NCBI RefSeq assembly: GCF_003122385.1
Contig: NZ_CP029255.1
Span: 1,922,001-1,986,000, forward strand
DNA from: Flavobacterium crocinum
Lineage (GTDB): Bacteria > Bacteroidota > Bacteroidia > Flavobacteriales > Flavobacteriaceae
DNA: 64,000 nt
Reading direction: 5' to 3'
The position numbers were made by a program, and so were the translations under genes. This document shows positions 45,957 to 54,052 of this stretch, piece after piece. The first letter of the stretch is position 1, and each line of letters opens with the position of its first letter. Under the pieces are notes generated by a model. The model was not told the origin of the DNA and searched no databases. It worked only from the letters and a program-made list of their open reading frames with translations.

Positions 45957-47714
45957 TTAATAAATATTGATTCCGTAAGGCATTATGGTCTGGACTCCTT
46001 TTAATTTCTGGAATTTCTTTACCTGCTCAATAAGCATGTAATTTTCTTCTCCAATTTCTTCTTTTATGAAAGCCTCTTTAGATTTTGCAAAAGGCAGACC
46101 TGACAGTATATCGTTTAAAGTTTTTTCGTACTCCGGATAATTCTGAGTGCTGTATTTTTTGATTTTAGCAATCTTAGCCGCTTCTGCAATAGCATCATTT
46201 AAACCACCTATTTTATCCACTAATCTTAATTTTACTGCTTCTGTTCCTGACCAAACTCTTCCTTGCGCAATAGCATCAACCTGATCAAAAGTCATTTTAC
46301 GTCCTTCAGCAACATGAGTTACAAAAGTATTGTAGATTTTTTCAACTCCTTCTAAAGTGAAGGCTTTAAACTTCTCGTCAACTGGTACAAACGGACTGTA
46401 ATTAGCTGAGTTTTCATGAGTTTTAACCTGCTCAGAATTGATTCCTAATTTATTTGCTAACGGACTAAAGTTTGGCAGCATTCCGAAAACGCCGATAGAT
46501 CCCGTGATAGTATTGTTTTCAGCAAATATTTTATTAGCGTTGCAGGCAATATAATATCCTCCCGAAGCAGCGTAATTTCCCATCGAAACCACAACTGGTT
46601 TTACTTTTTTAGTAATTTCAATTTCTCTCCAGATTAAATCAGAAGTTAAGGCACTTCCTCCTGGGCTGTCAATTCTCAGAACAATCGCTTTTACATTGTC
46701 ATTTTTTCTCGCTTCCTGCAAAGAACGGCGCATAGAACCTTCTCCAATTGTATTAACATCACCTTCACCGCTTCCAATTTCGCCCTGAGCGTAAATAATA
46801 GCAATTTGATCAGTAGCCGTATTAGTTAAAGCAGATGTAACATTATTTTGAGTATAATCTAAAATCGAGATTTTGTTGTAATCTTCGTCTTTGTCTACTT
46901 TCAGTGCTTTTCTGATGGCATCATGATACACATCTTCGTATGCAATAACATCTACCAAATGTTGTTGTTTCGCCATTTCAGGAGTTCTCGCTAAAAGACC
47001 GTTTGCAATTTCGTTTAATTTTGGAAGCGGAATATTTCTGCTTTTTGAAATATCTGCAGAAACAGTAGCCCAAATTGAATTTAAAAGTGCAGTAATTTGT
47101 TCTCTGTTGGCATCGCTCATTTTGTTTTCCAAGAAAGGCTCAACAGCACTTTTATATTTTCCGTGACGAATCACTTCCATACGGATTCCCGATTTATCCT
47201 GAAAATCTTTAAAGAACATAACTTCAGAAGAAAGACCTTTAAAGTCCAGATCTCCTGCCGGATTTATGTAAATCGTATTCGCAACAGAAGTCAGATAATA
47301 TTCTTTCTGCGAATAATCGTTGGCGTAAGCCCAAACAAATTTCCCTGATTTTTTAAAGCTTTCCAATGCATTTCTTAAATCTTTGTATTGTGCAAGACCA
47401 AGAGAAGACTGATCGTTTAAAATAGAAATTCCTTTAATGTTGTCATCTGTTTTGGCAGCTTCGATTGCATTGATGACATCCGTTAATCCAATACCTTTTT
47501 GCTCAGAAAAACGAGTAACCCAGGGATCTTTGTATTTTCCTGCGTAATCGTTTTTAATTTCTTTTAAATTCAATTCAATAACCGAATCAGATTTAACAGA
47601 AACAGCATCGTCTCCGCCAAAAAGGGTTGCAATAAATATTACTCCAAAGAAAAAGAGCATGATAAAAACAAAAATACCAATTACTGTGGCGAGTACATTT
47701 CCTAAAAATTTCAT
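45957..47714 (-). CDS. sppA: Signal peptide peptidase SppA, 67K type
   Basis: SppA degrades cleaved signal peptides in the membrane. One N-terminal membrane segment (about 5-32 after the chosen start) is followed by two S49 domains. The N-terminal domain carries the catalytic Lys in GKYKSAVEPF (K188), and the C-terminal domain carries the nucleophile S384 in YAASGGYYIAC. I chose ATG 47714 (MKFLGNVLATVIG) over 47741, whose extra nine residues lie before the basic segment of the membrane anchor. Its usual flavobacterial neighbour folK lies 5 kb away here, beyond the inserted peptide locus. Confidence 0.95.
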   Translation of the reverse strand: MKFLGNVLATVIGIFVFIMLFFFGVIFIATLFGGDDAVSVKSDSVIELNLKEIKNDYAGKYKDPWVTRFSEQKGIGLTDVINAIEAAKTDDNIKGISILNDQSSLGLAQYKDLRNALESFKKSGKFVWAYANDYSQKEYYLTSVANTIYINPAGDLDFKGLSSEVMFFKDFQDKSGIRMEVIRHGKYKSAVEPFLENKMSDANREQITALLNSIWATVSADISKSRNIPLPKLNEIANGLLARTPEMAKQQHLVDVIAYEDVYHDAIRKALKVDKDEDYNKISILDYTQNNVTSALTNTATDQIAIIYAQGEIGSGEGDVNTIGEGSMRRSLQEARKNDNVKAIVLRIDSPGGSALTSDLIWREIEITKKVKPVVVSMGNYAASGGYYIACNANKIFAENNTITGSIGVFGMLPNFSPLANKLGINSEQVKTHENSANYSPFVPVDEKFKAFTLEGVEKIYNTFVTHVAEGRKMTFDQVDAIAQGRVWSGTEAVKLRLVDKIGGLNDAIAEAAKIAKIKKYSTQNYPEYEKTLNDILSGLPFAKSKEAFIKEEIGEENYMLIEQVKKFQKLKGVQTIMPYGINIY

Positions 47715-47794
47715 GATGTATATTTTTTTAATAAGTAGCATTAAAGGGCTATATGTTACAAAATCTTAGGATATTAATTTTCAAAATAGACAAT

Positions 47795-48184
47795 TTAGTC
47801 TTTTTTACTTTGTTTTAATAATATAATAATTTCTTCTTTGTCTTTAAGATGTAATTCATACTGTCCCTTTACAAATATAATTTTTTCTTTTAAAGTTTTG
47901 ACATGTTCTTTAAGTTCAAAAACTAATGTCTCCGATGCTGATAATAATTGTGAGCAGGAAATAGTATTGTCTTCTTTAATAGTATGGGTACCTAGTTTTT
48001 TATTTTGTATTTCATTTTTATCTACACCCAATATACTAGAAATAATGTCCCATTCAGATTCTAGTATTTTGCTACTTCCTTTTTCTTTTCGATAATACTG
48101 AGGTTGGGAAATTTTTAAATATTGAGCCATCTGTTCTTGTGAAATCCCTCTTTCTTCTCTGATTTGTCTTAGTTTAATTTCCAT
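47795..48184 (-). CDS. HTH (Xre-like) regulator divergent to the peptide gene
   Basis: A 129-residue protein with an N-terminal helix-turn-helix (RQIREERGISQEQMAQYLKISQPQYYRKEKG, residues 5-35) and a C-terminal coiled coil (about 75-125, ELKEHVKTLKEKI, ELHLKDKEEI). The ATG at 48184 starts the HTH; an ATG at 48235 would add 17 unlikely residues. It is transcribed away from the small peptide gene, with the shared 188-base region holding a promoter with a palindrome, so autoregulation and control of the locus are plausible but not shown. Base composition is very A/T-rich. Confidence 0.85.
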   Translation of the reverse strand: MEIKLRQIREERGISQEQMAQYLKISQPQYYRKEKGSSKILESEWDIISSILGVDKNEIQNKKLGTHTIKEDNTISCSQLLSASETLVFELKEHVKTLKEKIIFVKGQYELHLKDKEEIIILLKQSKKD

Positions 48185-48242
48185 GGTTTGATGATTTAAA
48201 TTAAGGACTTTTTTTATTATGCATTTATTATTCATGATTTTA

Positions 48243-48274
48243 TTGATTAAGAATAAAATTATATTTTATATTTG
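48243..48274 (+). promoter_or_regulatory. Promoter of the small peptide gene with overlapping palindrome
   Basis: TTG (48243-48245) and TATATTTG (48267-48274) are 21 bases apart. The -7 element is part of the 15-base palindrome TATATTTGAAATATA (48267-48281), a candidate operator for the divergent HTH protein. Transcription would start near 48281, about 90 bases before the ATG. Confidence 0.6.
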
Positions 48275-48371
48275 AAATATATAATTTTTCTTACTTTTTA
48301 ACATTTTGCGTACGGAGATTTAAAAGTGAGACTATACAGTAAAATTTTTATAAACTTTAAAATTAAAATTT

Positions 48372-48542
48372 ATGAACTTAGAAAATCAATTGCCAGTCTT
48401 AATTGAAGAAAACCAATTACTTGAAAGGTTTCAAGTGGAAGAATTAGAGAAAAGATATGAGTTTGGTTGGACTGTTGTTGTGGGACCGCTAGATCCGCCA
48501 GATAATCCGATTCCACTTCCAGAACCCCCAATGCCTTTTTAA
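48372..48542 (+). CDS. Candidate precursor peptide, 56 residues, single Trp, Pro-rich tail
   Basis: The reading frame ATG 48372 to TAA 48542 encodes 56 residues. The N-terminal 30 are acidic and helical in character (LPVLIEENQLLERF, QVEELEKRYEFG), like a leader peptide. A hydrophobic turn follows with the only Trp (W33 in GWTVVVGP) and then a Pro-rich C-terminus (nine Pro in the last 18 residues) without Cys. An A-rich stretch precedes the ATG, there is a promoter upstream and an intrinsic terminator 20 bases downstream, all on this strand. I recognise no family. The context of a PqqD-like/M50 protease and an isoprenoid-synthase-like enzyme suggests a modified-peptide precursor; that is inference. 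A 204-base frame on the other strand here is a shadow. Confidence 0.7.
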   Translation: MNLENQLPVLIEENQLLERFQVEELEKRYEFGWTVVVGPLDPPDNPIPLPEPPMPF

Positions 48543-48560
48543 ATTGATATATTAAAATTG

Positions 48561-48596
48561 AAAAGCCAAGCAAATTTTTAAAAAGCTTGGTTTTTT
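48561..48596 (+). terminator. Intrinsic terminator after the small peptide gene
   Basis: AAAAGCCAAGC-(loop)-GCTTGGTTTTTT, with six G/C-rich pairs (CCAAGC/GCTTGG at 48566-48571 and 48585-48590) and a T6 run. It would give a short abundant transcript of the peptide with partial read-through to the enzymes. Confidence 0.85.
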
Positions 48597-48644
48597 GATG
48601 TTATTGTAGCAATAGATACAACTTTTAATAATAAACAGAAATGC

Positions 48645-49829
48645 ATGAGATTGAACTACTTTAAATTATTATTACTACTGTTATTCAAAAGTTCAATTAA
48701 TGGACAAATCTTACAAATAAATAAAGTGGTTGTTGATTTCCAGACAAAACAGCCATTGGAATATGTTAATATTAGTAATGATATAGATAATACAATTTCA
48801 AATAAAGAAGGTTTATTTGTTTTTGTTTCTAGAGATAAACATATTAATATAAGCTCAGTAGGTTATGAAACCATTAATACCACTTTTGAGGAAATCAACA
48901 AACAAGACACCATTTTTTTAAAGTCAAACATAATTGAGCTTGAAGAAATTATTGTAGACAATGTAAGTTTAGTTCTAAACGAAGTGTACAGAAATGGTTA
49001 TAAAAATTATTTTCTAGAACCTTATTTAGAGGAGTTTTTTTTAAGAGGTATACTAAAACGAGATAATACAATAATAAGATTTCAAGATGTTTTTGGAAAA
49101 GTTGAAAGAAATTCTTTGTTTGTAACTCAGAAAAATCCGCAAGAGAAGTATTTAGTAGAAATTTCTAGTTTAAGGAAAATTGGAATATCTGAAAAGGAGA
49201 ATAATGAGTATATAGAATTTCCAAGTTTTAAAACGTTGTTTAGATGGTATTCGGCAGTTTTTAATTTGCCTAATGAATATGTTTTTACTATTGAAAAAAT
49301 AAACGATTTAGATTATTTGAAGATTAATTTTTCTAAAAGCGAGGAAAATAAAAACACTTTAACTAGAAAAGGATACTATGTAATAAATAAAAAAGATAAA
49401 TCGATAAAGGAAGTTAATTACAGTATGGTGGGAGATGTAGATAAAATTGAATTTAATGGAAGTAGAGGATTGAAATGGCGAACAATTGGTATTGATTTAT
49501 ATATTCATTTCAAGAAAAATGAAATAGAGAACAAATACTATATTGGAAATGCAACTCTTAAAAATACGTTTGAAACTATTAAAGGAGATAAAAAAACTAT
49601 TTATGAAGCTTTCTATGATCTAATTACGATAAGAAATGATGTTAAAGAAAAATTGAGCTCTAATTTTTCAGTTGATAAGGATATTTTTAAAGCTAAATTT
49701 CCGTATTCAGAACAATTTTGGAATACTCAAAATCAATTGCCACTAACAAATGAACTACATGAATTTATAAAACGAGTTTTGGATAATAGAAATAATAAAG
49801 AATTTGAGATAATGGGTAACTTTAAATAA
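48645..49829 (+). CDS. Secreted carboxypeptidase-regulatory-like domain protein
   Basis: A 394-residue exported protein. A signal peptide (about 1-20, ending INGQ) is followed by a CarboxypepD_reg-like beta-sandwich (about 24-95): VVVDFQTKQPLEYVNISND, SNKEGLFVFV and NISSVGYETI are its hallmarks, as in TonB-dependent transporter N-termini. The rest is a mixed beta domain with TRKGYYVINKKDKSIKEVNYSM, typical of Bacteroidota surface proteins that lack a barrel. I cannot assign a function. It is the first gene of the three-gene operon, five bases before the next start. Confidence 0.8.
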   Translation: MRLNYFKLLLLLLFKSSINGQILQINKVVVDFQTKQPLEYVNISNDIDNTISNKEGLFVFVSRDKHINISSVGYETINTTFEEINKQDTIFLKSNIIELEEIIVDNVSLVLNEVYRNGYKNYFLEPYLEEFFLRGILKRDNTIIRFQDVFGKVERNSLFVTQKNPQEKYLVEISSLRKIGISEKENNEYIEFPSFKTLFRWYSAVFNLPNEYVFTIEKINDLDYLKINFSKSEENKNTLTRKGYYVINKKDKSIKEVNYSMVGDVDKIEFNGSRGLKWRTIGIDLYIHFKKNEIENKYYIGNATLKNTFETIKGDKKTIYEAFYDLITIRNDVKEKLSSNFSVDKDIFKAKFPYSEQFWNTQNQLPLTNELHEFIKRVLDNRNNKEFEIMGNFK

Positions 49830-49834
49830 TAGTC

Positions 49835-51706
49835 ATGAAGTTTAAAAGTTATATTGAAAAACTGGATCTTCTACATAGCTTTAAAAGTCAAATTTTGGAA
49901 GAAGATTTTATAAATAAGAATCCTGTTTATTATCAAAACTATCCATCGCTTTTTTCGAAGTCTTTTTCGATAGCTACAGATGATTTAGAGTTGCTTGATA
50001 TCGCGGGATACCTGTATTATCAAGCAACAATATTTACAGATTTATTGATTGATGAAGGGGATTTTTCTAAGTTTCCTTTAATTGGAATTTGCCAAGAGGA
50101 AAGCATTAAAATTTTGACTAGTATTTATGGTTTAGAAAGTGATTTTTGGAGGTATTGGAACTTGCGAAGAAATGAATATTTGCAGGCTGTCTATTTGGAA
50201 AAATCTTTTCTGCAAAGAGAAAATATGAGAATTGAAGAATATGAAGAATTAGCAGATAAAAAGTCGGCTTTTGGAAAAGTAGCGATTGACTGTCTTCATA
50301 ATTTAGATAGTGAGAATAACAAAGTATATCAAAAATTGTTATTATCTCATAAATACTTTTCGACGGCTTTTCAGTTGAATGATGATATTCAGGATTTTAA
50401 AAGAGATTTAAAAAAAGGGCAATTTAATTGGGCTAATTATCTATTAAAAAAGCAAAATATAGACAGCCAAAATCCTGAAGTTTTAGAGAAATACTTGTAC
50501 ATACGAGGGATTAGCAGGGATATCTATGGTCTAGGAATTTCATATTGTGATAAGGCTTTAAAATTGGTAGAAAACATAATTGTTCCAGATTGGATAAAAG
50601 TATTGAATGATACCAAGAAAAGATTTGTTATGGCGATAAAAGAAATAGATAATTATTTAGAAATCTTAACTGCCGAAATCAATTTATCAGATGTAAAGAA
50701 AGAAAAAAACGATGTTCAGTGTGCTATTAGTAATTCTATTGAGTTTATTAAAAAGAGACAAAATGAAGACGGAAGCTGGAGAGAATATGTAAATCAGGGA
50801 GGTATAAGTAATATCTGGGCTACAGCATTTTTAACGGCGAAAATTTCTGAGAATAGTTACTTAAAAATAGTCTTTGAAAATGAAATTTTAAAATCATTAA
50901 AATTCTTTATTGAAAACACAAAAAACAATTTATGGAGTTACAATTCTACTTGGATAGAAGACGCTGATTCTACAAATTTTGCATTATTATCTCTTTTGCA
51001 GAATAATGTAGAAATTGATGTTAATATTATTAGCCATTTGATAAAATATCAAAATGAAACTGGAGGATTTTCTACCTACAATGATAAAAAATATTTAATT
51101 CAATCACTTGAAGATAATAATATAACAGATGTTTCGGGCTGGACTAGCTCTCATAATTGTGTGAGTGCTGTGAGTTTTTACTTTTTAGCTTTGTATAATC
51201 AAAAAAGCACTTCTTTTCTTAATTTAAGAAATTATTTTGAAATAGATTTTGAAAAGAAAACAGATTCATATTGGTGGACAAGTTCACTCTATACTTTGAA
51301 TTATCTGGCCAAAACGTATTATCATCTTGAAGAATTTGAAAAACTAAATTGGATTATTATGGAAACTGAAAAACTGCAAAATGACAATGGAAGTTTTGGA
51401 GATAAATACGGAGAAAGTAAATTTTATACTGCTTTGGGTATCGAAATTTTATTGTTAGGTAGTAGTTCTAAATTGAAAACTCAAAAAGGAATATCCTATT
51501 TATTAGAAAATCAATTTGATGATGGTTCATGGGAGAATTCAAATGCTTTACAAGTTCCAAATTCCAAGAGTTTAAAACCAGATGAATTAATGTATCCAAT
51601 TTCATCATTTGGAATGAATGTGAGGGCAAAAGAATTTAATAGATTATTTACTACTATTTCGGTTTTACAAACACTTTCAAAATATGAACGAAGATATAAT
51701 TCCTAA
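49835..51706 (+). CDS. Fusion of class I isoprenoid-synthase-like and QW-motif cyclase-like domains
   Basis: A 623-residue cytoplasmic protein. Residues about 1-275 are all-helical with two Asp-rich sites, D69xxxD73 in FTDLLIDEGD and the classic DDxxD D183-D187 in QLNDDIQDFKRD, as in polyprenyl synthetases. Residues about 295-620 form repeating helix pairs with QW motifs: QNEDGSW (309-315), QNETGGF (406-412), QNDNGSF (515-521) and KGISYLLENQFDDGSW (551-566). A DxD-type motif DADST (376-380) sits where class II cyclases have DxDD(T), with Ser in place of the last Asp. Both domain calls are from motifs. The pairing of a prenyl-diphosphate synthase-like domain with a cyclase-like barrel next to a small peptide gene is unusual. 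Its stop overlaps the next start by 23 bases. Confidence 0.75.
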   Translation: MKFKSYIEKLDLLHSFKSQILEEDFINKNPVYYQNYPSLFSKSFSIATDDLELLDIAGYLYYQATIFTDLLIDEGDFSKFPLIGICQEESIKILTSIYGLESDFWRYWNLRRNEYLQAVYLEKSFLQRENMRIEEYEELADKKSAFGKVAIDCLHNLDSENNKVYQKLLLSHKYFSTAFQLNDDIQDFKRDLKKGQFNWANYLLKKQNIDSQNPEVLEKYLYIRGISRDIYGLGISYCDKALKLVENIIVPDWIKVLNDTKKRFVMAIKEIDNYLEILTAEINLSDVKKEKNDVQCAISNSIEFIKKRQNEDGSWREYVNQGGISNIWATAFLTAKISENSYLKIVFENEILKSLKFFIENTKNNLWSYNSTWIEDADSTNFALLSLLQNNVEIDVNIISHLIKYQNETGGFSTYNDKKYLIQSLEDNNITDVSGWTSSHNCVSAVSFYFLALYNQKSTSFLNLRNYFEIDFEKKTDSYWWTSSLYTLNYLAKTYYHLEEFEKLNWIIMETEKLQNDNGSFGDKYGESKFYTALGIEILLLGSSSKLKTQKGISYLLENQFDDGSWENSNALQVPNSKSLKPDELMYPISSFGMNVRAKEFNRLFTTISVLQTLSKYERRYNS

Positions 51707-52853
51707 GCTTTCTAATGATATTTTTATCCATTCATTGAACAAAGATGATTTCTTTATCCATCAAACTCATTTTGATCATCGAGTAAAAATTTCAAGTGAT
51801 TTAAATAATTTCATAACATCAATAGATGGAAAGCAAAATTTAAAAAGTTTAGTTGAGAATTATAATGCATTATATAATATTGAATTGACAACCGATTTTG
51901 CATATGAGTTTTTATACAATAAATTGGCAAGATTTGGTATTATAGAAAGTGAAATAATTCCAGTAAAACCAAATTTAAAGCCTAGTTATATCAAGCTGAG
52001 TTTTATTGTCATAAACGAGCGCATAGTTTCTAAGTTAACTAAGTATTTAAAATTTTTACTTTTACCCAACGTGATGAAAAGTATTTTAATTACTGCAACT
52101 TTTATTTTAGCAGGATGTTTTTATTTTTTTTATGATGAAATTTTGCATACTACAATTGCAAAATCGGAATGGTTATTATTATTCTCTTTAAGTTTTATTG
52201 GTGTTACGTTTCATGAATTCGGGCATGCTTCCGCCGCTCATTATTTTGGGGCAAAACACGGAGGAATTGGTGGAGGTTTTTACTTGTTTATTCCTGTTTA
52301 TTTTGCTGATGTTACAGATATTTGGAAACTTCAAAAACATCAAAGAATTATTGTGAACTTAGCAGGCATGTATTTCGAATTAGTTTATGTCGTTTTTTTA
52401 GTTTTAGTTAGTTTGCTTTTTCAAAATAATTTAATTCTTATTTTAGCATGTATATATTCGATGTCAATTCTACATAGTTTAAATCCTTTTGCAAGAAGTG
52501 ATGGATACTGGGTTTTATCTGATGTTATTGAAAAACCAAATTTAATGCATCAAGGTTTTACTAGAGTAAAAACCGTTTTTAAGATTTCAAAAAAGTGGAA
52601 AGTAATGGATTATTTTTTACTTGTTTATGGTTTAATTAGTTGTAGTTTTATTCTTTTTTTTGTGTACTTCGTAGTTGTGAAAAATCCAGATTCAATTTTA
52701 TATTTTCCTCAAAACTTAATCAAATTTTTAAAAACTGTTTTTGAAGATAACTCTAAATTTTCATTGGCAGATTTAGGAAAGTTATTTATTCCTGTCTTAT
52801 TTTTTTATCTTCTTTTTGGATTGCTGAAAAATCTCTTTATGAAGATAAGATAG
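51684..52853 (+). CDS. M50-family membrane metalloprotease with PqqD-like N-terminus
   Basis: A 389-residue integral membrane protein. Residues about 12-95 resemble the PqqD-like winged-helix domain (DHRVKISSDLNNFITSIDGKQNLKSLVENY, then a helix ending ARFGIIE), which binds leader peptides in many RiPP systems. The membrane part has zinc-site HEFGH (177-181) and the second motif NPFARSDG (267-274), as in YydH-type peptide zinc metalloproteases; six or so hydrophobic segments follow. It likely cleaves the modified peptide or its leader at the membrane. Its ATG lies inside the end of the preceding gene, indicating translational coupling. Confidence 0.83.
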   Translation: MNEDIIPKLSNDIFIHSLNKDDFFIHQTHFDHRVKISSDLNNFITSIDGKQNLKSLVENYNALYNIELTTDFAYEFLYNKLARFGIIESEIIPVKPNLKPSYIKLSFIVINERIVSKLTKYLKFLLLPNVMKSILITATFILAGCFYFFYDEILHTTIAKSEWLLLFSLSFIGVTFHEFGHASAAHYFGAKHGGIGGGFYLFIPVYFADVTDIWKLQKHQRIIVNLAGMYFELVYVVFLVLVSLLFQNNLILILACIYSMSILHSLNPFARSDGYWVLSDVIEKPNLMHQGFTRVKTVFKISKKWKVMDYFLLVYGLISCSFILFFVYFVVVKNPDSILYFPQNLIKFLKTVFEDNSKFSLADLGKLFIPVLFFYLLFGLLKNLFMKIR

Positions 52854-52915
52854 TTGCTATAGAATTTAATAAATGCGGTTAATTCTAAAATAGTTTTAGT
52901 TAATTTGCATTAATT

Positions 52916-54052
52916 ATGAAATTACAGCATCAAGTCGTTTTATCGATAGGCAGCAACCAAGGCAGCAGACTAGAAAATATCCAAAATTGTATTGATTTAA
53001 TTCATCAAAATGTAGGTACTGTCATTCAGGTTTCAAAACTTTACGAAACTCCAGCCTGGGGTTTTGAAAGTGATGCTTTTTATAATTGTGCGCTTCTTTT
53101 GCATGCCAATTCTTCTGCGCAGAAAATATTAAGTCAGGTTTTAAAGGTTGAAAAAGAATTAGGACGAATCCGCTCTAATCAAGAAGGTTATCAATCTAGA
53201 ATCATAGATGTTGATTTGATTGCTTTTGATGACGAAATTATCCATTCGGAAAAACTTCAGGTTCCACATCCTTTAATGCAAAACAGAAATTTTGTTTTGC
53301 TGCCTATGCAGGATTTAAAATTAAGCTGGAAACATCCTGTTTTGCATAAAACAATTGGAGAATTGATAGCAGTTACTCCGGATGAAAGTGTTTGTACAGT
53401 AGTTCAGAGTTTAGAAAATCCGCTTGACGAAATTCCTTTAAATCAATTTAATTATATTTCTTTTGAAGGAAATATTGGTGCAGGAAAAACTACTCTGGTG
53501 CATAAAATTGCGGAGGATTTTAATGCAAAAACTGTTTTAGAACGATTTGCAGATAACCCATTTCTTCCGAAGTTTTATAAAGATCAGAACAGATATGCTT
53601 TTCCGTTGGAAATGTCTTTTTTAGCAGATCGTTATCAGCAGTTATCAGATGATCTGGCACAGTTTGATTTGTTTAAAGATTTTATTGTAGCCGATTATCA
53701 TATTTTTAAATCACTGATTTTTGCTAAAATTACGTTACAGGAAGACGAATATCGTTTGTACAGAAATCTGTTTGATATTATTTATAAAGAAATGCCAAAG
53801 CCTGATTTGTATGTTTATTTATATCAAAATACAGAACGACTTCTGCAAAATATCAAAAAACGCGGCCGTAATTACGAACAAAATATTGAGGCTTCGTATT
53901 TGGAAAAAATCAACAATGGTTATTTGGAATACATAAAATCACAAACCGATTTGAATGTTTTAATTATTGATGTTTCTGATCGTGATTTTGTAAAAAGACA
54001 TGAAGATTACATTTTTATATTGAATGAAATTAAGAAGAAAACAGCATCTTAA
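52916..54052 (+). CDS. folK: HPPK (FolK)-deoxynucleoside kinase fusion
   Basis: A 378-residue two-domain protein. Residues about 5-165 are 6-hydroxymethyldihydropterin pyrophosphokinase (SIGSNQGSRLENI; RIIDVDLIAFDDEI; PHPLMQNRNFVLLPM), which activates the pterin for folate synthesis. Residues about 178-378 are a dNK-type deoxynucleoside kinase with P-loop GNIGAGKTT (185-193), ERFADNPFLPKFYKD and a DYH active-site region. This fusion is known in Bacteroidota. It follows the peptide locus after 62 bases with a separate A/T-rich spacer, so it is probably not part of that operon. Confidence 0.94.
   Translation: MKLQHQVVLSIGSNQGSRLENIQNCIDLIHQNVGTVIQVSKLYETPAWGFESDAFYNCALLLHANSSAQKILSQVLKVEKELGRIRSNQEGYQSRIIDVDLIAFDDEIIHSEKLQVPHPLMQNRNFVLLPMQDLKLSWKHPVLHKTIGELIAVTPDESVCTVVQSLENPLDEIPLNQFNYISFEGNIGAGKTTLVHKIAEDFNAKTVLERFADNPFLPKFYKDQNRYAFPLEMSFLADRYQQLSDDLAQFDLFKDFIVADYHIFKSLIFAKITLQEDEYRLYRNLFDIIYKEMPKPDLYVYLYQNTERLLQNIKKRGRNYEQNIEASYLEKINNGYLEYIKSQTDLNVLIIDVSDRDFVKRHEDYIFILNEIKKKTAS

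Follow-up and report, generated by a model that had tools for sequence, protein, structure and literature searches.

Enzymes that prenylate a tryptophan (Trp) of a ribosomal peptide and then close the prenyl group into rings have already been described. In the available part of a review (PMC13290415), which cites Hubrich et al. 2024 (Chem 10:3224) for both examples, ChrPC uses a prenyltransferase (P) domain resembling trans-isoprenyl diphosphate synthases (trans-IDS-like) to modify an internal Trp with C10–C20 donors, after which its cyclase (C) domain helps cyclize the prenyl group. NctPC combines an ABBA-type P domain with an MstE-like C domain, and transfers C20 to Trp before cyclization. 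The characterized trans-IDS-like prenyltransferases covered there all target Trp. ComQ/ComX and PalQ/PalX likewise pair a peptide with an isoprenoid-synthase-fold enzyme that prenylates its Trp, but the available text on them (PMC10853753; PMC13290415) describes no fused cyclase. Here we analyze a locus of Flavobacterium crocinum (RefSeq GCF_003122385.1) that lies within a 64,000-nucleotide window, positions 1,922,001 to 1,986,000 of contig NZ_CP029255.1, and encodes a small peptide, a P-C fusion enzyme and an M50 metalloprotease (Table 1). We propose that this locus probably makes a terpene-modified ribosomal peptide, in which the terpene is carried by a conserved Trp and closed into rings.

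The window locus appears to be a new branch within an established class and not a class of its own. Like ChrPC, which we know by description, it has a P-C fusion with a trans-IDS-like P domain and an internal Trp in a ribosomal precursor; a Chryseobacterium defluvii fusion has a P domain about 50% identical to that of the window and very similar precursor leaders. The C domain is MstE-like, as in NctPC acting on Trp with C20, whereas the NctPC P domain is of the ABBA type and the window P domain has the all-helical isoprenoid synthase fold. MstE itself (PDB 6sbb–6sbg) shares the C-domain fold and catalytic DxD acid, but it is a stand-alone enzyme, its substrate is a prenylated dihydroxybenzoate according to the entry titles, and it is only 21% identical to the window C domain. 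ComQ is reported to lack the second Asp motif (available part of PMC10853753), which is intact in the window as DDIQD. The first-pass annotation, made from the sequence alone, had proposed an isoprenoid-modified ribosomal peptide freed by the M50 protease and knew of no described cluster of this composition. Its substance was right and its claim of novelty was wrong: with ChrPC and NctPC described as fusions acting on a ribosomal-peptide Trp in the available part of PMC13290415, we rejected a new kind of cluster and place the locus in the known class.

Both domains of the fusion are predicted at high confidence to adopt the folds first suggested for them, an isoprenoid-synthase fold and a class II cyclase fold. 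The DDxxD motif ascribed to the helical domain fared unevenly. The second motif is complete, while the first reads D69xxxD73 and misses the second Asp of DDxxD. D69 and D73 are nevertheless present in every P domain with a letter there (5 gaps), Q180 is found in 286 of 287 P domains, and D183 and D184 in all 287 (2 gaps). The available text of PMC13290415 states that a Gln at this position helps trans-IDS-like peptide prenyltransferases to recognize Trp; FQ also occurs at this position in the canonical synthases of the same genome, and Q180 thus does not discriminate between them. In the C domain, the residue changed in the MstE D109N and D109A entries lies opposite D378, the second Asp of the acid motif, and D376 and D378 are invariant in the 23 rows of our alignment A1.

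The P domain also differs from canonical synthases in its motifs. It stays below the curated cut-off of PF00348 (20.6 bits versus 27, matching the second aspartate-rich motif (SARM) part only; 19.3 bits in another scan), and it lacks two motifs found in each of the two canonical synthases of the genome, the GKRIRP/GKQMRP type and FARM-RRG (FARM, first aspartate-rich motif). When the P domain was aligned globally, by profile, with these two synthases, its N-terminal part aligned poorly; loss of the isopentenyl diphosphate (IPP) site is therefore read from motifs only.

The small peptide beside the enzyme has a recurrent leader. It comprises a leader (residues 1–30, ...ERFQVEELEKRYE), then FGW, then a variable proline-rich core, and is the sole match to leader profile A2, of which it is itself a seed, in a genome that consists of a single 5.88-Mb contig with one fusion copy. 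In a first inspection of eight of 25 named loci, each had at least one small upstream open reading frame (ORF), with a common leader and differing tails; later locus steps covered all loci. After removal of nine duplicate loci (L067, L068, L079–L083, L090, L094) and of L039, which had no ORF above threshold, the leader profile at E<0.01 matched 62 peptides among 7663 small ORFs, in 38 of 50 non-duplicate loci. All 62 share the strand of the enzyme and none lies on the opposite strand. A leader peptide lies near 41 of 49 P-domain genes at this threshold and near five more by eye, while both the leader peptide and the M50 gene are absent near four cyclase-only relatives; the peptide therefore follows the prenyltransferase domain. 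Most of these peptides share the Trp. Of the two outcomes that would have refuted the first-pass reading, fusion homologs consistently lacking a small peptide gene and domains predicted to adopt other folds, neither was observed. Ten precursors scanned against NCBIfam and Pfam gave no match above a cut-off. A chance small ORF was ruled out by the leader matches across loci and in the genus control below.

Trp is the constant feature of the core. It occurs within eight residues after the RxE of the leader in 59 of 62 precursors, and at +3 or +4 in 54. Elsewhere it is rare, with 14 occurrences in 914 later core residues and none in 1580 leader residues. Among the five extra precursors recognized by eye, three contain Trp (L075, L076, L092) and two do not (L077, L098).

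Both the locus leader profile and A2 were built from peptides found near enzymes, so genome-wide controls weigh more. The enzyme match is sparse, occurring in 14 of 397 family genomes, 14 of 398 genus genomes and 11 of 395 phylum genomes, some of which match one domain only. Among the 398 Flavobacterium genomes (thresholds E 0.001 for the enzyme and 0.01 for the leader), 14 had the enzyme, one of them as only a 26-residue end fragment, 18 had the leader and 13 had both (Fisher p 1.4e-19). Of the 14 enzyme-bearing genomes, 13 thus had the leader, versus 5 of the 384 others. A phylum control of 335 genomes found the leader in nine, eight of which also had an enzyme match; two of these eight (G804, G839) gave no seed. 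The phylum enzyme genomes G835 (cyclase only), G1001 and G1148 had no leader match or were not drawn. In the viral_contigs set, 67 stretches matched a pattern and none encoded a relative, leaving no phage-borne relative found there.

The M50 protease resembles proteases of other ribosomally synthesized and post-translationally modified peptides (RiPPs), which supports the first-pass annotation. The window protein matches the NCBIfam daptide_HExxH model NF041824 (1.2e-28; 100.4 bits, below the cut-off of 300) and YydH/LiaK (2.8e-19; 69.7 bits, below the cut-off of 225), and in a set of 34 M50 members the two profiles match 33 and 32, respectively. By these profile matches it is homologous to the daptide M50 protease, though not an equivalog, and it is probably the leader peptidase. 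An M50 gene adjoins 40 of 49 P-domain genes in our tabulated count, and five more (L016, L018, L020, L027, L084) overlap the fusion beyond the limit of that count, as seen in the gene map. The remaining cases are L023 and L038, which lie near contig edges, the fragment L072, and L092, where none is in view. The PqqD-like N-terminus proposed for this protein is less clear than its M50 part: none of the 34 members matched Pfam PqqD in its N-terminus at E<=0.1 (PaaA-like_N matched in two), and hhalign against PqqD gave a weak match (E 0.0012, 19% in the program's own probability; score 22.4 versus a maximum of 13.8 in 20 column shuffles), with a wrong ORF (L139) among the five PqqD rows.

Combining these observations, we suggest how the locus could work. 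The precursor would be bound through its FxVEELExRxE leader. The N-terminal domain, judging from its fold, its motifs and the conservation of the Trp, would ionize a C15 or C20 prenyl diphosphate at the Asp motifs and transfer the prenyl group onto Trp33, directly after the leader. The C-terminal MstE-like domain would then form the rings, with D378 protonating the far end of the attached chain. The M50 membrane protease would remove the leader, and, more speculatively, the secreted Lol-like protein might carry the greasy peptide through the periplasm. By analogy, we infer that the window fusion works like ChrPC as presented in the available text of PMC13290415.

Several observations weigh against this proposal. 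Twelve of the 13 co-occurring Flavobacterium genomes gave A2 a seed, as did most of the eight co-occurring phylum genomes; the positive side of the controls is thus not independent, while the negative side of both is. What the genus control adds is therefore that 379 of 384 enzyme-less genomes also lack the leader. The other five carry a leader match without the enzyme. One of them, L130 (G677), is an apparently orthologous locus that keeps the helix-turn-helix (HTH) gene, the precursor and the secreted protein, with the fusion and M50 absent between these and the next housekeeping gene. L131 has a TraB/PrgY neighbor, L132 (G579) has M50 and LpxL-like acyltransferase neighbors, L133 is a weak match with a stop inside, and the fifth genome is probably noise at E 0.008. 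The early Trp is missing from 3 of the 62 precursors (L037, L087, L089) and from L077 and L098 found by eye. L087 also has the sole enzyme of 287 with another letter at Q180; the Gln is kept in L037, L089, L077 and L098, however, and the L087 pairing is therefore a hint only. The position of the Trp at the edge of the leader could mean that it belongs to a recognition element. The N-terminal 90 residues of the M50 protein are possibly, on weak support, a leader-binding domain. Finally, ChrPC was compared by description, and we can only guess, going by its name, that it resembles our Chryseobacterium entry.

If the Trp serves recognition by the protease or the enzyme, the prenyl group could sit on another residue of the variable core. 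The near-fixed spacing of three to four residues past the leader motif in 54 of 62 precursors would suit this, as would the five precursors without an early Trp. We nonetheless consider it unlikely: none of eight other residue types counted comes near Trp in constancy, the characterized trans-IDS-like enzymes in the available part of PMC13290415 modify Trp, and the acyltransferase-type locus L132 keeps the leader and M50 gene without a Trp.

The enzyme itself could act differently. Fusions of class I and class II terpene enzymes that produce free terpenes exist, and database names of the relatives ('geranylgeranyl pyrophosphate synthase', 'terpene cyclase' or similar) would fit an ordinary bifunctional enzyme making a free cyclic terpene, with the peptide and protease as a separate, co-travelling system. 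That arrangement is improbable given the co-occurrence of leader and enzyme in the genus and phylum samples, the overlap of enzyme and M50 genes in 20 of 54 tabulated genes, and the loss from the window P domain of motifs that the canonical synthases of its genome retain. Alternatively, the peptide might be prenylated and left uncyclized, the C domain being a structural remnant or a leader binder. Some P-alone genes do keep an M50 neighbor and a leader peptide, cleanly in L070, with weaker leaders in L075, L076, L077 and L098, and with a stop reported in the match in L085 and L088. Yet A1 shows no variation in the DxD acid motif, which aligns with MstE Asp109, and two cyclase types persist that differ in their commonest acid motif (DADS/T or DIDD), which makes idle C domains very improbable. 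We therefore retain prenylation of the Trp followed by cyclization as the favored reading.

The two cyclase types stand behind one kind of prenyltransferase. Among candidates scored, the window fusion had 222 relatives and the Chryseobacterium fusion 372, in sets that may overlap. We classified 294 proteins, some duplicated, made up of the best 120 of the 222, the best 120 of the 372 and 54 locus genes: 147 join P to an MstE-type C domain (type A, commonest motif DADS/T), 133 join P to a hopene-cyclase-like C domain (type B, commonest motif DIDD), nine have P alone and five C alone. The P-alone group includes fragments and interrupted genes (L019, L072, L085). The window cyclase is type A (DADST, MstE-like) and that of C. 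defluvii P0121 is type B (DIDDL); their P domains are 50% identical over 258 residues, whereas their C domains barely align. Similarly, L035 (type A) shares 60% identity in P with L036 and L095 (type B) and 24% in C, while L036 and L095 are 59% identical to each other in C. Gene order is similar in these three loci and their precursors are closely similar. An approximately unbiased (AU) test rejected a single type-B clade (p 1.7e-5); it covered 58 P domains, a set obtained by leaving out long-branch loci and roughly seven of every eight P proteins. A quick tree left 38 of 88 forks open, and we give more weight to the AU test and to pairwise identity. With P domains and precursors alike, C domains unlike and a single clade rejected, sequence comparison suggests that one cyclase module has replaced another, in at least one clear case, while the leader and the prenyltransferase stayed conserved. 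Our literature search found no account of cyclase exchange, of the Lol-like protein or of the M50 gene in this setting; Hubrich et al. 2024 may contain them.

The five ORFs and the 23-base overlap of the fusion and M50 genes lie where the first-pass annotation had placed them (Table 1), and the terminator it noted is a real hairpin by folding. Segment 48543–48605 folds at -16.3 kcal/mol, and none of 200 shuffles was as good. A consensus terminator scan gave no match at this hairpin because it allows loops of 3–8 and the hairpin loop is 13. Rfam gave no match in 47500–53200 at gathering scores, and consensus promoters were uninformative (42 versus 31.6 expected). Relatives of the HTH regulator form cluster C7, with five loci including the window (the others being L016, L017, L018 and L038), and another is seen by eye in L130. 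Both the HTH gene and the hairpin probably serve to regulate expression of the locus.

Table 1. Features of the F. crocinum locus, in window coordinates.
Feature	Position	Strand	Evidence or remark
XRE-type HTH regulator, divergent to peptide gene	47795..48235	-	Pfam HTH_3 1.5e-9
RiPP precursor gene (putative), 56 aa	48372..48542	+	leader profile A2 match, E 6.1e-13
Codon of Trp33, proposed prenylation site	48468..48470	+	Trp conserved after RxE
Hairpin with U-run after precursor gene (terminator or attenuator)	48557..48599	+	fold z -4.0
Secreted protein	48645..49829	+	signal peptide by eye
Fusion, 623 aa, putative bifunctional maturase	49835..51706	+	trans-IDS-like prenyltransferase domain and class II terpene cyclase domain
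First Asp motif DLLID (D69, D73)	50039..50053	+	284/284 P domains
Q180 and second Asp motif DDIQDxxxD (D183, D184, D187, D191)	50372..50407	+	P-domain alignment
Class II acid motif D376-A-D378	50960..50968	+	D378 aligns with MstE Asp109
M50 membrane metalloprotease	51684..52853	+	HEFGH (177-181) and NPxxxxDG motif

Other loci vary the same parts. L132 (8996–11522) encodes two peptides with a related leader (SVEELQ/SIEELQxRNEFTA) and no Trp. In this one locus a lipid-A-acyltransferase-like (LpxL-like) gene replaces the prenyltransferase, with leader and M50 kept, and the locus may represent a sister system in which the peptide is fatty-acylated, not terpenylated. In L025 (11883–13964) and L029 (14315–16387) the M50 protein carries a fused MauE-like domain and has weak thioredoxin/glutaredoxin-like matches, and the precursor cores contain Cys; maturation in these loci may include disulfide formation. 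Two systems adjoin in L019/L020 (8400–19070), a type A fusion (interrupted by a stop in L019) with its peptides, and next to it four peptides that contain Cys, together with a type B fusion and additional M50 genes. By eye, radical-SAM/SPASM-like maturation proteins (cluster C5) adjoin the enzyme in L033, L036, L086, L087, L095, L097 and L099, and some products of these loci may carry further modifications.

The secreted protein may combine a CarboxypepD_reg/SusC-NTE-like domain at about residues 21–99 with a possible LolA/LolB-like half-barrel at about residues 103–342; Foldseek alone gave two matches at E<=0.001 for this protein. In L071, L075 and L076 we noted by eye MacB-like permeases, an HlyD-like protein, an ABC ATPase and a C39-like peptidase near the P-domain gene, a possible export route. 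Some core C-termini (e.g. GVGVGVSF, YGIGVKHNF) resemble outer-membrane beta-signals (L018, L071, L075, L088, L091, L131), and 11 of 62 precursors end in Phe. Beta-signal scores of at least 4, a threshold chosen post hoc, occurred in 5 of 60 cores (two of the 62, shorter than 12 residues, were left out) versus 4 of 558 neighbor proteins (p 0.0007), with counts of 3 versus 4 at a score of 6, 1 versus 3 at 8 and 0 versus 2 at 10; the medians are alike (-9.3 and -9.4) and related peptides are not independent, which leaves the test weak. Such ends would suit peptides acting at the cell surface.

The window locus gives access to a family that counts hundreds of sequence relatives. Tentatively, and with considerable doubt, these may represent a kit for terpenylated peptides spread across Bacteroidota and Balneolota. 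Its ring shapes would be set by swappable cyclase modules (MstE-type, hopene-cyclase-type or none) combined with a common leader and Trp-prenyltransferase, and a dedicated secreted Lol-like carrier would take the lipidated peptide toward the outer membrane. Pairs such as L035 versus L036/L095 allow the question of how the cyclase sets the ring system to be asked directly, and offer parts for peptide engineering. The Lol-like protein, if a true carrier, would reveal how terpenylated peptides can be transported in Gram-negative cells.

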